Below, in pieces: positions 56,802 through 62,542 of a DNA stretch of 64,000 nucleotides; position 1 is the stretch's first letter; each line of letters begins with the position of its first letter. The DNA lies in contig NZ_OX458932.1 in the NCBI RefSeq assembly GCF_949774925.1, positions 496,001-560,000 of the forward strand, in the 5' to 3' direction. The notes beneath the pieces were generated by a model that worked only from the letters and a program-made list of their open reading frames with translations, made no database searches and had not been told where the DNA came from. This DNA is from Candidatus Methylacidiphilum fumarolicum (GTDB lineage: Bacteria > Verrucomicrobiota > Verrucomicrobiia > Methylacidiphilales > Methylacidiphilaceae). A program made the position numbers and the translations under genes.

Positions 56802-56837
56802 TATTGCCTTTTTCCCAGTATAAAGCTTTGGAGTAAT

Positions 56838-57400
56838 GAATAGGTATTGCCATTGCGATGCCGATCTAGTCATAAACAGGCATGGCAAACCTATATTCGC
56901 CGAAGAAGTTTGACGCGCTAATCGGTCGGAGCCTAAGCTGGCAGTTGCAAAAGGCAGCAGCAAAGGGAGTCGCCCACCAAACGGACTTGAGCAAACCGGT
57001 GACTGAACGGCTGGGGGATCGAAGCAAGCGGACTAAACTCCAAGAGGAAGAATTCCCTTACCTCTGATGGAGCTTGGGGGAACGGGAGTGATTTCCAGGC
57101 GCATGGCAGAAGGCTAAGCTAGCCCCAAGCGGATTGCAGGCAAGAATGTGGGAGCTAGCCCTCAAAGACGGCTAGGAAGCGATCGAAAAGTGGGTGTTAG
57201 CCTCCTTTTCGATGATCAACCCAAAGATCCAGCGCCGTCTGAGATGGGCAGAAGAATCAAAGCGGGTTGCTTTCTTGATATTCCACTCTGTGCAGCGGCT
57301 TGTTTCTGTATTACGAAAAAGAGAGCCGTTAGCTTCTAAATTTCACATGACGAAAGCAAGGCAAGCTACCATCCCTTTTTAGCTTGTGAAAGGACTTGCA
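56838..57400 (+). mobile_element. IS607-like relic d
   Basis: Left end GGTATTGCCATTGCGATGCC resembles that of relics a and c. From 56882 ATGGCAAACC opens MANLYSPKKFDALIGRS, the helix-turn-helix start of IS607 TnpA, then the frame is lost. RESPTKRT soon after corresponds to the '(R)T.T.RR' segment. At ~57.15-57.3 kb, TnpB-like pieces match relic b (for example CAAAC...). No right end of the a/b/c type could be placed, so the 3' limit is uncertain. Confidence 0.65.
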
Positions 57401-57715
57401 GAAGGGCAATCGTAAAGCAGCGAAGAGTAAAACTGCGTCAGTCGATTGGATGGGAGGAATGGAGGTACCAGACTTTTAAAGAGAAGGGGAGATAGTTTTA
57501 ACACATAGAACAGGTTTTGATCGTTTCGACCATTCTCTATATAAATAAAATGGAGAAAAAAATTTTATCTTAATTCAAGGATACCTTTATTAACAAATTA
57601 ACAAGAGAACACTGTATCATCCTATGCTCACAAAAAAGTAACGATAACAAAATTCTTATAGCCTTTTGCTTGAATTCTTGGGATCTGATGTCAAAGTCTT
57701 TTTAAATCCTTTTTT
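57401..57715. other. Intergenic stretch before ppa
   Basis: About 315 bases. The first ~90 may be further relic sequence; the remainder is AT-rich and probably holds the ppa promoter. No gene or RNA recognised. Confidence 0.4.
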
Positions 57716-58294
57716 ATGACACCTTCTTTTACATATCACAGACAGGGTGTTTCCCATCCCTGGCATGACGTTTCTCCTGGAATAAATGGGCTGCCTTCTC
57801 AATTCAATGCAGTGATTGAAGTCTCAAAAGGTAGTTCCAATAAATATGAATTGGATAAAGAAACTGGGCTTTTACGCTTAGACAGGGTACTTTATTCAGC
57901 CGTTTATTATCCGGCCAACTATGGATTTATTCCTCAAACACTGGCAGAAGATAAAGACCCCTTAGATGTTTTGGTTCTTGGGGATGAGCCTGTCTTACCC
58001 ATGACGTTAGTGCATGCGCGGACAATAGGGCTAATGGTAATGGAAGACCAGGGACAACTGGATCATAAAATAGTTTGTGTGCTCACAAGCGATCCGGAAT
58101 ACAGTCATTTGAACGATATTCATGAGCTTCCCATCCATAAGTTGAGGGTTATCCGACGCTTCTTTGAGGATTACAAGGCATTGGAACATAAAAAGGTGGT
58201 AGTAGAAGACTTTCTCCCATCTAAGGAAGCCTTCCCAATTATTGAGGAGTCTTTGCAACGGTATAGAAATTGGAAGATAGAAACTGGAAAATGA
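57716..58294 (+). CDS. ppa: Inorganic pyrophosphatase
   Basis: 192 residues. FNAVIEVSKGSSNKYELDKE is the family I opening with active-site Lys and Glu; YPANYGFIPQTLAEDKDPLD carries the DxDPxD-like metal motif (AEDKDPLDVLVL). The RTIGLMVMEDQGQLDHKIV and DPEYSHLNDIHELP segments complete the site. It hydrolyses PPi from biosynthesis, for example from CysDN sulfate activation. Not part of nif functionally but it lies in the gap between the two nif runs. Confidence 0.94.
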   Translation: MTPSFTYHRQGVSHPWHDVSPGINGLPSQFNAVIEVSKGSSNKYELDKETGLLRLDRVLYSAVYYPANYGFIPQTLAEDKDPLDVLVLGDEPVLPMTLVHARTIGLMVMEDQGQLDHKIVCVLTSDPEYSHLNDIHELPIHKLRVIRRFFEDYKALEHKKVVVEDFLPSKEAFPIIEESLQRYRNWKIETGK

Positions 58295-58383: not shown

Positions 58384-58414
58384 TTGACCCTAAAGTTTAG
58401 TTTAGGGTTTATAT
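58384..58414 (+). promoter_or_regulatory. MerR-type promoter/operator of merR
   Basis: -35 TTGACC and -10 TTATAT are separated by 19 bases, the overlong spacer typical of MerR-controlled promoters. The spacer carries a dyad, CCCTAAA-N6-TTTAGGG (58388-58407). The -10 ends six bases before the merR ATG, so the predicted transcript would begin at or next to the start codon. Confidence 0.75.
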
Positions 58415-58420
58415 TGTTGC

Positions 58421-58840
58421 ATGAGTCAGAAAACAATCAATAGACCTTTGACCATTGGGAAGGTGGCAAATATGGCTGGGGTTGGAGTGGAAACCATTCG
58501 ATTTTATGAACGGAAAGGTTTACTACCGAAGCCGGCACGTTCTCTTACGGGTTACCGTCTTTACGATCAAAATGCTTTAAAAACGATAAGCTTTATTAAA
58601 CGAGCTAAGGAACTAGGTTTATCTTTAAATGAAATCAAAGAACTTCTTTTTTTACCTAAAGAAGGGAGCTGTCAAAGAGTTTTGCAGAAAGTGATGTTGA
58701 AAATAGAAGATCTTGAAAAAAGAATAAAAGATCTAAGAAGAATAAAAGAGAGCCTTGAGACTTTAGCAAATAGTTGTCAAAAGAACCGAAACGAAGAGCC
58801 TTGTCCAATTCTTTCGGCTTTGGAAGATCATGAAACATAA
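58421..58840 (+). CDS. merR: Mercury-responsive MerR regulator
   Basis: 139 residues. LTIGKVANMAGVGVETIRFY and ERKGLLPKPAR are the winged-helix DNA-binding start of MerR proteins; a long dimerisation helix follows (~84-119). Cys84, Cys119 and Cys128 are spaced 35 and 9 residues apart, the same as the Hg(II)-binding triad C82/C117/C126 of Tn501 MerR. That makes Hg(II) the likely ligand, more so than Cu or Zn. It is convergent with merA instead of the usual divergent layout. The likely leaderless transcript is noted in the findings. Confidence 0.9.
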   Translation: MSQKTINRPLTIGKVANMAGVGVETIRFYERKGLLPKPARSLTGYRLYDQNALKTISFIKRAKELGLSLNEIKELLFLPKEGSCQRVLQKVMLKIEDLEKRIKDLRRIKESLETLANSCQKNRNEEPCPILSALEDHET

Positions 58841-58868
58841 AGACCCCTAATGAACTGTAAGGTAACCT

Positions 58869-58926
58869 GTTCCTAAAAACATACTCAATCCGGCGAAAGC
58901 ATCTCTCCAAGGCTGTTTTTAGGAAC
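58869..58926. terminator. Hairpin between convergent merR and merA
   Basis: Thirteen-bp perfect stem GTTCCTAAAAACA ... TGTTTTTAGGAAC with a 32-base loop, 29 bases after the merR stop and 41 bases beyond the merA stop. The arm and the following bases (CTGTTCCTAAAAACATACTC, 20 bases) are identical to the right end of IS607-like relic a. It probably terminates from both sides, although U-runs are short. Confidence 0.6.
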
Positions 58927-58966
58927 TGCAATAAAAACATAGGCAAGCAAAAGGATCAGCTCCTTG

Positions 58967-60619
58967 CTAACTGGCACAACAGGAAAGATGTCCGACATCT
59001 TTTTTAAATGAGAGAGCAGCCAGTTTTATTGCCTCACTCATTGTTAGATAGGGATGGAAGGCATCCACTATGTCTTGTATGGTTAATCCATGTCGGATAG
59101 CAAGAACGGCCTCCTGAATAAAATCTCCAGCTGCTGCAGCAAGCACGTGGGCCCCGACAAGTTTTCCTGTGTTTGTTTCGCTGACAAGCTTAATTAATCC
59201 CCTAGTATCCAAAGAAATAATAGCCTTTGGAACCTCTTTGACCGGAAAAATCGAAGTAATGACATTCAACCCTTCTTTTTTTGCCTGAGCCTCGGTTAAG
59301 CCTACACTTGCGATCTGTGGATCGGTGAAAGTCACTCTTGGTAGAGATGAAAAATCAATGGATCGTTTCGCTCCATTAATAGCATTTTCTGCAGCGATTC
59401 CTCCTGTGAAAGCGGATACATAAACAAACTGCGGTAATCCTGCACAATCTCCAGCGGCATAAATGTCTGGATTGGTGGTACGTAGAAATGAATCAACAAG
59501 AATTTCTCCACGACTTCCCTTTTTGACTCCAACTTCTTCGAGTCCTAACTCTGCTGTGTTGGGACTACGACCTGTTGTCACTAGAATTTTCTCCACCCGC
59601 AATCCGATTTCTTTTTCCCCGTTTTGAATAGAAATAAAACAGCCATTTTCTCCCGTTTTTTCAACATAGCGAACCTGACTGTTTGTAAAAAGTTCAATCC
59701 TTTCTTCTTTCAAATATAGGCTAAGTTGCTCTCTTATTTCAGGTTCTTCGCTCATAGCAATGGAGGGTAGGGCCTCGATGATGTGTACCCTAACACCAAA
59801 GCGGGCAAACATCTGTCCAAGTTCTAGTCCTATAGCTCCTCCGCCAATTACGGCCAGAGAAGAGGGCAGAGTTTTTACACTTAAGGCCGTGGTGCTATCA
59901 AGAAAACCTGTTTCTTTTAACCCAGGAATCGGAGGAATAGATGGAGAGGAACCAGTGGCTAACAGGATTTTTCTTGAAGTATAGGTTTTATTATTAACGA
60001 TCAGTTGGATGCCAGCCCTCAACCTTGCCTTTCCCTCGATAAGAGAAATATTTGGGTAGACATCCAGAAGATGGATGTATTTTTGCATACGCAACAGGCT
60101 GACCAATTTCTCTTTTTGATCGATCAATTCTGCCCAGTCTAAGGGCATATTACACGATCCTAAACCTGCGAACCGAGGGTTCCTTGCCATTGTGTAAACT
60201 TCGGCGGCTCGAATAAGGAATTTAGACGGAACGCAGCCCACATTGACACAGGTGCCTCCAATGACCCCAGATTCAACGATCCCAACCTTCGCTCCTAGTT
60301 CACTTGCTTTTATCGCAGCAGCGAAGGCAGCAGAACCGCCTCCTACAATCAAAAGGTCATAATCTTTGCTCCTCTCTTCGCTGTCCATTCCTATTGGCAT
60401 CCGTTCGATGACAGTACCCTGATAGCCTAATGCTTCGATGGTTTGTAGGACTTCCTGCTCGTTCCATTGCTGGGTAGTAACAAGGCTAGCTCTTTTGGAA
60501 CGCCAATCAGTAATCAGAACTCTTTCAATCCCTTGGAGTTTTTGAAGGGCTCTTTTAAGATGCGTTGCACAATCTTCGCATTTCATCCCTTCAATCTGGA
60601 GAAGAACATTGGATTTCAC
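58967..60619 (-). CDS. merA: Mercuric reductase with N-terminal HMA domain
   Basis: 550 residues from a GTG at 60619 with AGAAGGAGG upstream. An HMA metal-binding domain (~1-70) has GMKCEDCATHL. The FAD motif LLIVGGGSAAFAAAIKA follows, then the redox disulfide GGTCVNVGCVPSKFLIRAAE, NAD(P)H-binding VIGGGAIGLELGQMF, and the FAD/dimer end. The C-terminus LSCCAS carries the vicinal Cys pair that passes Hg(II) to the active site. All catalytic Cys are present, so it should reduce Hg(II) to Hg(0). No merT or merP transport genes are in the window. Confidence 0.95.
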   Translation of the reverse strand: MKSNVLLQIEGMKCEDCATHLKRALQKLQGIERVLITDWRSKRASLVTTQQWNEQEVLQTIEALGYQGTVIERMPIGMDSEERSKDYDLLIVGGGSAAFAAAIKASELGAKVGIVESGVIGGTCVNVGCVPSKFLIRAAEVYTMARNPRFAGLGSCNMPLDWAELIDQKEKLVSLLRMQKYIHLLDVYPNISLIEGKARLRAGIQLIVNNKTYTSRKILLATGSSPSIPPIPGLKETGFLDSTTALSVKTLPSSLAVIGGGAIGLELGQMFARFGVRVHIIEALPSIAMSEEPEIREQLSLYLKEERIELFTNSQVRYVEKTGENGCFISIQNGEKEIGLRVEKILVTTGRSPNTAELGLEEVGVKKGSRGEILVDSFLRTTNPDIYAAGDCAGLPQFVYVSAFTGGIAAENAINGAKRSIDFSSLPRVTFTDPQIASVGLTEAQAKKEGLNVITSIFPVKEVPKAIISLDTRGLIKLVSETNTGKLVGAHVLAAAAGDFIQEAVLAIRHGLTIQDIVDAFHPYLTMSEAIKLAALSFKKDVGHLSCCAS

Positions 60620-60659
60620 TGTAATAAGCCTCCTTCTGCATATTGCTCTTTTGTAGACA

Positions 60660-60690
60660 ATCTAAGGGTTGGACTATAGTCCAGAGTCAA
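60660..60690 (-). promoter_or_regulatory. MerR-type promoter/operator of merA
   Basis: On the minus strand TTGACT and TTAGAT are 19 bases apart, with the perfect palindrome GGACTATAGTCC (60671-60682) in the spacer. This is the layout of mer and related metal-response promoters. Predicted +1 near 60653 gives a ~34-base leader to merA. Confidence 0.78.
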
Positions 60691-60756: not shown

Positions 60757-60772
60757 TGTGTGTTTTATCACA
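60757..60772. promoter_or_regulatory. NifA upstream activator site 2 (nifB)
   Basis: TGT-GTGTTTTATC-ACA, full match to TGT-N10-ACA, about 165 bases before the nifB -24 element. Confidence 0.7.
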
Positions 60773-60789: not shown

Positions 60790-60805
60790 TGTACCAATTC
60801 TTACA
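60790..60805. promoter_or_regulatory. NifA upstream activator site 3 (nifB)
   Basis: TGT-ACCAATTCTT-ACA, full match, starting 33 bases after site 2 (about three helix turns) and ~133 bases before the nifB -24 element, within the usual looping range. Confidence 0.72.
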
Positions 60806-60922: not shown

Positions 60923-60938
60923 TGGCACAGCTTTTGCT
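60923..60938 (+). promoter_or_regulatory. Sigma-54 promoter of nifB
   Basis: TGGCACAGCTTTTGCT is a perfect match to the sigma-54 consensus TGGCAC-N5-TTGCW. Predicted +1 near 60949 leaves a 25-base leader containing AAAGGAGG before the nifB ATG. Confidence 0.9.
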
Positions 60939-60973: not shown

Positions 60974-62542
60974 ATGACTGCTGCTTTGACACAAACTCCG
61001 AAAGCAAAGAATTTTCAGCGTTTGAAATCCTTGGGACTTTCCGTTACTTCCACTATTCAGCATCAAGGATGCGGTTCGAAGGGAGGCAGCGGAAAATCGA
61101 GTTGTGGTTCTGGAGCGGGGGCAGGAGATCTTCCAGAGGAAATTTGGGAAAAAGTAAAAAATCATCCCTGTTATAGCGAAGAAGCGCACCATTATTATGC
61201 GCGAATGCATGTGGCTGTGGCACCGGCATGTAATATTCAGTGCAATTATTGTAACAGAAAGTATGACTGTGCGAATGAAAGCCGACCAGGGGTGGTAAGC
61301 GAAAGGCTTACCCCAGAAGAAGCAGCTAAGAAGGTTTTGGCTGTTGCCTCTCTCATTCCTCAGATGACTGTTCTTGGGATAGCGGGTCCAGGAGATCCTT
61401 TAGCTAATCCGGATAAGACATTTAAAACTTTTGAGCTTGTAGCAAAGAAAGCTCCAGACATAAAGCTTTGTCTCTCAACCAATGGTCTAGCATTACCAGA
61501 GTATGTGAAACGAATCAAGGATTTCAATGTGGATCATGTAACCATTACGATCAATATGATAGATCCAGAGGTGGGGGAGAAAATTTATCCCTGGGTGTTT
61601 TATAAACATAAAAGGTATAAAGGGAAAGAGGCAGCGAAGATTCTTTCGGAAAGGCAGTTAGAAGGATTAGAGATGCTTACGGCTGAAAAGATCCTTTGCA
61701 AGATCAATTCCGTGATGATCCCAGGGATTAACGATGAACACCTAATAGAGGTTAATAAAGCTGTGAAATCTCGTGGAGCTTTTCTCCATAATATCATGCC
61801 CCTTATTTCGGCCCCTGAGCATGGAACATACTTTGGGTTGACAGGACAGAGAGGGCCAACAGCACAGGAATTGAAAGCTCTGCAGGACAAATGTGAAGGG
61901 CAGATGAACATGATGAGGCATTGCAGGCAATGCCGCGCCGATGCGGTGGGATTGCTTGGGGAAGATAGGAGTAGTGAATTTACCAAAGAGAAGATCGCCT
62001 CTATTGAGGTGAATTACGATATGGAAACGAGAAATGCCTACAAAATGCAAGTGGAGCAGGAGAGGCAAAAGAGAGTGGCGGAAAGAGAAAAGGAATTAAA
62101 AGAAATAGCTAAAGAAAATAGTGAACTTAAGATTTTGGTTGCTGTAGCCACAAAAGGTGGGGGCAAAATCAACGAACATTTTGGGCATGCTAAAGAATTT
62201 CAAATTTATGAGCTTAGTACGAAAGGCTCGAAATTCATCGGTCATCGGAGAGTCGACCTCTATTGCCAGGGTGGGTATGGAGAAGAGGATGCGCTTGAAA
62301 CCGTTATTCGGGCGATAAGGGATTGTGTTGCTGTGTTTGTGGCAAAAATAGGATCTTGTCCGAAAGAAGCTTTGGAGAAAGCTGGCATAGAGACCGTTGA
62401 CAGGTTTGCTTATGAATATATCGAAAAGGCCGCTCTGAGTTATTTCAAAGAATATCTTAGCAAGGTCAATGCTGGATTGATTCATCCAACCAAAAAAGAA
62501 GATGCTCTGATTCGACAGGGGGCATTAGTGACTTTGAATTAA
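60974..62542 (+). CDS. nifB: Nitrogenase cofactor biosynthesis protein NifB
   Basis: 522 residues, GGAGG seven bases before the ATG. An N-terminal Cys/Gly-rich patch ([16 protein letters not shown]) is followed by the radical-SAM site [36 protein letters not shown] and [19 protein letters not shown] are the conserved NifB blocks that carry K-cluster ligands. From ~385, [20 protein letters not shown] starts a fused NifX-like cofactor-binding domain, as in full-length NifB. It makes NifB-co from FeS clusters, the core of FeMo-co. Head of the second nif run, with its own sigma-54 promoter. Confidence 0.97.

Follow-up and report, generated by a model that had tools for sequence, protein, structure and literature searches.

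A mercury-resistance gene pair, merR and merA, lies beside nifB on the SolV chromosome with its two genes facing each other. This raises the question of whether the pair belongs to a single mercury-regulated system and whether its position has anything to do with nitrogen fixation. The window analysed was the whole stretch G000:C1:496001-560000 (64,000 nucleotides) of a chromosome of 2,476,671 bases, and positions within it are counted from its first base. Five Methylacidiphilum genomes were compared, namely the window genome G000, taken as SolV; G008; G009, taken as V4 (2,287,145 bases); G010, taken as Kam1 (2,202,032 bases); and G011, Methylacidiphilum sp. Yel, with an 85,568-base contig. 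Relatives of the window genome were 93-95% identical, and the genus divides into a SolV-type clade (SolV, Kam1 and Yel) and a V4-type clade (V4 and G008). When genome contigs were scanned with a single protein, only Yel and distant oxidoreductases were matched.

The merR gene (58421..58840, plus strand) encodes a MerR-family metal sensor of 139 aa, and merA (58967..60619, minus strand) encodes a mercuric reductase of 550 aa with a GTG start and an N-terminal NmerA (HMA) domain. The genes converge tail to tail across a gap of 126 bp. A reading made from the sequence only had placed them between DUF269 and nifB. The positions and the convergence were right, but DUF269 and merR are additionally separated by an inorganic pyrophosphatase (PPase) gene (57716..58294, plus strand) and a decayed repeat, in the order DUF269, repeat, PPase, merR. 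On the other side, nifB (60974..62542, plus strand; 701 bits against TIGR01290) follows behind the merA promoter and is divergent from merA across 354 bp. The order PPase-merR-(merTP)-merA-nifB, where merTP is a merT-merP fusion gene, was kept in all five genomes when synteny was compared as the earlier reading had proposed. DUF269 was found upstream in four of them and was missing in V4, in which the upstream nif genes are gone and mer still stands with PPase and nifB. The layout is truly unlike the classic mer arrangement, as had been noticed, but it is shared by the genus and was already described as merRAT:P in V4. The decayed repeat (56835-57494) belongs to a high-copy family with 79 matches in the SolV genome and is ~660 bp long in SolV versus ~216 bp in Kam1 and Yel; a search for a family name gave no result. 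Such a repeat close by might suggest that the gene order reflects a recent insertion or an assembly error. This is refuted by the identical order in four independent assemblies, and in V4 without DUF269, and by the single clade formed by the MerA proteins of the genus. Assembly error is ruled out because the arrangement recurs in all five genomes, and the chance of either event is negligible.

MerA scored 573.8 bits against TIGR02053, above the curated cut-off of 454.45, and contains HMA and Pyr_redox domains. It aligned end to end with the solved mercuric reductase 5x1y and over the catalytic part with 1zk7. The cysteines C14/C17, the redox-active CxxxxC pair C124/C129 and the C-terminal pair C547/C548 were kept in all five genomes. 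The same was true of Y181 and Y524, which were matched by eye in the alignment to the active-site tyrosines, numbered Y194 and Y605 in Tn501 MerA. Judged from these alignments, every catalytic residue that was checked is kept. With merR and merA both present and the cysteine positions checked, the sequence-only reading of a mercury-resistance pair is supported. In SolV, only one gene qualified as merA by similarity and the next best was 31% identical. An earlier survey examined six genomes of verrucomicrobial methanotrophs and found merA in all of them, with a count of two merA genes in M. fumariolicum and M. kamchatkense (PMC8262016). Within the SolV clade, synonymous changes prevail in the merR, merA and merTP genes (dN/dS 0.08-0.18, which is also the range for merA; 0.18 for merR between SolV and Yel), and by this measure all three genes are under purifying selection.

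The metal sensed by MerR was a further point to settle. TIGR02051 gave the best score of all models at 135.3 bits, yet this was below its equivalog cut-off of 150.85, and the ZntR, CueR and CadR-PbrR models reached 103-113 bits. Residues C84, C119 and C128 aligned with Cys82, Cys117 and Cys126 of Tn501 MerR, so that the spacing of 35 and 9 reported earlier as the exact Hg triad was correct. The lead regulator PbrR (5gpe) aligned with the same spacing, and the cysteine triad alone is therefore no proof of mercury. We count both the low TIGR02051 score and the shared spacing against an Hg-responsive MerR regulon, and both would fit a Pb/Cd/Zn-type or broad-metal sensor instead of a specific Hg(II) sensor. 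Such a sensor is nevertheless unlikely, given that TIGR02051 scored best, that merA and merTP are linked genes in all five genomes, and that the best PDB matches were 4ua1 and 5crl, which are MerR proteins, with the metal assigned from the depositors' names. In Kam1, merR (L037:6306-6721) runs into a stop behind codon 101, where eight A follow one another, and loses Cys119 and Cys128. The stop may be a homopolymer sequencing error, the alternative being a pseudogene or real loss. The merA and merTP genes of Kam1 are intact despite this stop, which we count against a single regulator for all mer genes.

Both genes are preceded by predicted MerR-type promoters. The merR site (58384..58415, plus strand; in full TTGACCCTAAAGTTTAGTTTAGGGTTTATATT) has a -35 box TTGACC, the dyad CCCTAAAGTTTAGTTTAGGG and a -10 box TATATT. 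The merA site (60659..60690, minus strand; in full TTGACTCTGGACTATAGTCCAACCCTTAGATT) has TTGACT, the dyad GGACTATAGTCC and TAGATT, and is followed by a leader with the Shine-Dalgarno sequence AGAAGGAGG. Spacers of 19 bp had been proposed for both. The MerR type stands, but at 19 bp the -10 boxes are poor (TTATAT for merR and TTAGAT for merA) and the best ones lie at 20 bp. Likewise, the two dyads that had been described as different (CCCTAAA-N6-TTTAGGG and GGACTATAGTCC) both exist as written but represent one motif, because they share their flanking bases and a common centre, which lies 14.5 bases from where the -35 box begins. By the match in -35 box, dyad centre and -10 position, the two operators are of one promoter type, with the 19-20 bp spacer and central dyad of MerR targets in the predicted sites. 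The -10 box of merR ends 5 bases before the ATG in SolV and 5-6 bases before the start codon in every genome, and the merR mRNA is therefore probably leaderless. A sigma-70 scan with 16-18 bp spacers gave no above-chance match at the mer promoters, which fits their longer spacers. A terminator scan of the merR-merA gap found nothing above shuffled sequences, and the best stem-loop was the merR operator itself.

A pattern drawn from all mer sites was searched with up to two mismatches in the five whole genomes, where it matched only mer promoters (13 sites), compared to five matches for the reversed pattern used as a control. Since it was made from these same sites, the result shows uniqueness and not independence. 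A second pattern was built from the four V4 and G008 sites only and allowed up to three mismatches. In SolV, Kam1 and Yel it recovered the promoters of merR, merA and merTP, nine out of nine, together with a single unrelated site in SolV, and its reversed control gave two matches in the five genomes. Dyad symmetry was 6-8 of 10 in the SolV-type sites. Two observations count against a common operator, namely a symmetry of only 3 of 10 in the G008 merA site and of 6 of 10 in the V4 merA site, which has a better centre elsewhere.

The absence of merT and merP had also been noted, and this holds for the reported span but not for the genome. A merT-merP fusion gene lies at G000:C1:177847-178458, 376 kb from merR and merA, and has its own predicted promoter (TTGACTCTACACCTAAGTAAAGGGTTTATATT) 147 bp upstream. 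The SolV fusion protein scored 34.2 bits against PF02411, above the gathering score of 32.9, and also has an HMA domain; its V4 counterpart scored 22.9 bits and stayed below that threshold. In V4 and G008, merTP follows directly behind merR within the merR operon. In the three SolV-type genomes it stands apart from merR, downstream of a MerR-type promoter; for Kam1 and SolV, it has already been published that merRA and merT:P are separate (PMC6688271). About 2.3 kb downstream of merTP (L036:8772-10234) are genes named by eye as a regulator like RcnR/CsoR and a nickel/cobalt exporter like RcnA; the two may make up a second cluster for metal resistance.

The SolV genome has one MerR_1 (MerR-family) gene. 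Two weak protein matches (E 0.007 and 0.046) that might have been a second MerR lie opposite a mutY-like gene and were rejected. Two near-identical copies of a mutY-like and an rnhB-like gene, with diverging ends, occur ~9 kb apart (L023 and L024; G000:C1 ~1558540 and ~1567587), a duplication that may be rearranged or an assembly effect. V4 and Yel carry 13-15 extra MerR_1-type matches that are absent from SolV, mostly covering 40-53 N-terminal positions and present in repeated copies; these may be resolvases of the IS607 type, encoded by active insertion sequences. Because SolV has one MerR_1 gene, its product probably acts on all three promoters, among them that of merR itself. The sequence-only reading had allowed that another MerR might recognise one of the operators, with merA then under a different MerR-family regulator acting on GGACTATAGTCC. 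Although the letters of the two dyads do differ, and the merA operator resembles Zn/Cd/Pb-type sites, we consider such a regulator very unlikely because of the single MerR gene. Moreover, the register, flanks and dyad centre of the merA site are as in the merR and merTP sites, and a common TTGACCCT-N-TA-N3-T-N-GT is present at both merR and merA in the V4-type genomes. Thus, the genes very probably form an inorganic-mercury resistance regulon with a single MerR and three promoters. In the papers searched, no mention was found of the shared promoter type, the single regulator or the leaderless merR.

In the mechanism that we propose, Hg(II) would be taken up through the MerT-MerP fusion protein, passed on to the NmerA domain and then to the MerA active site, and reduced to Hg(0). 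A single MerR would act on three equivalent promoters, those of merR, merA and merTP, with -35 and -10 boxes that, at 19-20 bp apart, would be spaced too widely to work well unaided. Once Hg(II) is held between Cys84 of one subunit and Cys119/Cys128 of its partner, MerR would twist the DNA, and all three promoters would be turned on. Under its own promoter, merR would itself be mercury-induced, in contrast to Tn501 and Tn21, where it is only repressed. The papers searched yielded no data on induction by Hg.

The position beside nifB had been suggested to reflect the sensitivity of FeS proteins to mercury. In the 354-bp gap, the merA promoter is followed in order by a candidate CRP/FNR-like palindrome TGTGTGTTTTATCACA (60757..60772, plus strand), a predicted NifA-type upstream activating sequence TGT-N10-ACA (60790..60805, plus strand) and a predicted sigma-54 promoter TGGCACAGCTTTTGCT, a perfect match (60923..60938, plus strand). 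The last two are nif elements that belong to nifB and not to mer. TGT-N10-ACA is common alone, with 17 occurrences in the window versus 8.3 expected, so the NifA assignment rests on its conservation and place. The palindrome is conserved in all five genomes, taking the form TGTGA-N6-TCACA in V4 and G008, and an exact copy of TGTGWGTTTTMTCACA occurs nowhere else in the five genomes. A single HTH_Crp_2 protein is encoded in SolV (G000:C1:1560708, L112). The divergent arrangement of merA and nifB, the conserved palindrome placed after the merA promoter and before the NifA site, and the HTH_Crp_2 protein could be read as a sign that merA shares control with nifB through NifA or a CRP/FNR-type regulator, thereby protecting the Fe-S nitrogenase. 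This is improbable, since the MerR-type promoter that merA has for itself is complete, both the NifA site and the sigma-54 promoter are directed towards nifB, three genomes have merTP, a member of the regulon, at a distance from nif, and mer stays with PPase and nifB in V4 after the loss of the upstream nif genes. An additional nitrogen or redox control of merA via the CRP/FNR-like site shared with nifB, which would coordinate Hg reduction with nitrogenase cofactor assembly, is just as doubtful. We found nothing in support of the FeS suggestion. The mer genes are tied to nif by adjacency only, as part of an old neighbourhood, and on present evidence this adjacency matters little.

When Verrucomicrobiota sequences were placed in a tree, MerA of the genus formed one clade with 99/100 support, separate from the Methylacidimicrobium group, and its nearest relatives found outside the family were ~47% identical. 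On this basis, mer in the genus is an old chromosomal trait and not a recent plasmid gain. Between the two clades of the genus, identity was 67% for merA, 57% for merR and 44% for merTP, compared to 87-91% for PPase and nifB, and the mer genes have therefore either evolved more rapidly or been exchanged at the same position. The mercury-resistance system is an ordinary one with a layout scattered over two chromosome sites. The mer operon came apart with each piece having a like promoter, so that a single MerR is still able to act on the dispersed genes, and with three promoters and one regulator the regulon of the SolV clade is easy to test.

The closest known system is merRAT:P of Methylacidiphilum infernorum V4, reported as the mercury reduction genes Minf_0449-0451 (PMC2474590, PMC6688271). 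It is like SolV in its genes, the site between PPase and nifB, the promoter type and the convergent merA, but differs in that merTP lies inside the merR operon, whereas in SolV it is 376 kb off with its own promoter copy. With the mer systems of Tn501 and Tn21, SolV shares the MerR cysteine triad, the long-spacer promoter with a central dyad, import by MerT and MerP, and a MerA with NmerA. In Tn501 and Tn21, merR is divergent from the structural genes and one operator region is shared. SolV does not have this classical divergent operon, and instead has convergent merR and merA, three promoters at two loci and a fused merT-merP. A survey of merR orientations listed 52 as 'convergent' and 143 as 'divergent' (PMC3466566), where 'convergent' seemingly means co-directional. 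The Firmicutes-type mer operon of Bacillus RC607 has merR co-directional and first under an Hg-type promoter, and SolV merR is likewise under such a promoter. The nearest solved relatives by E-value were 4ua1 for MerR and 5x1y for MerA, both of Bacillus type. In the RC607-type operon merA comes next in the same operon, whereas in SolV it lies tail to tail with merR.
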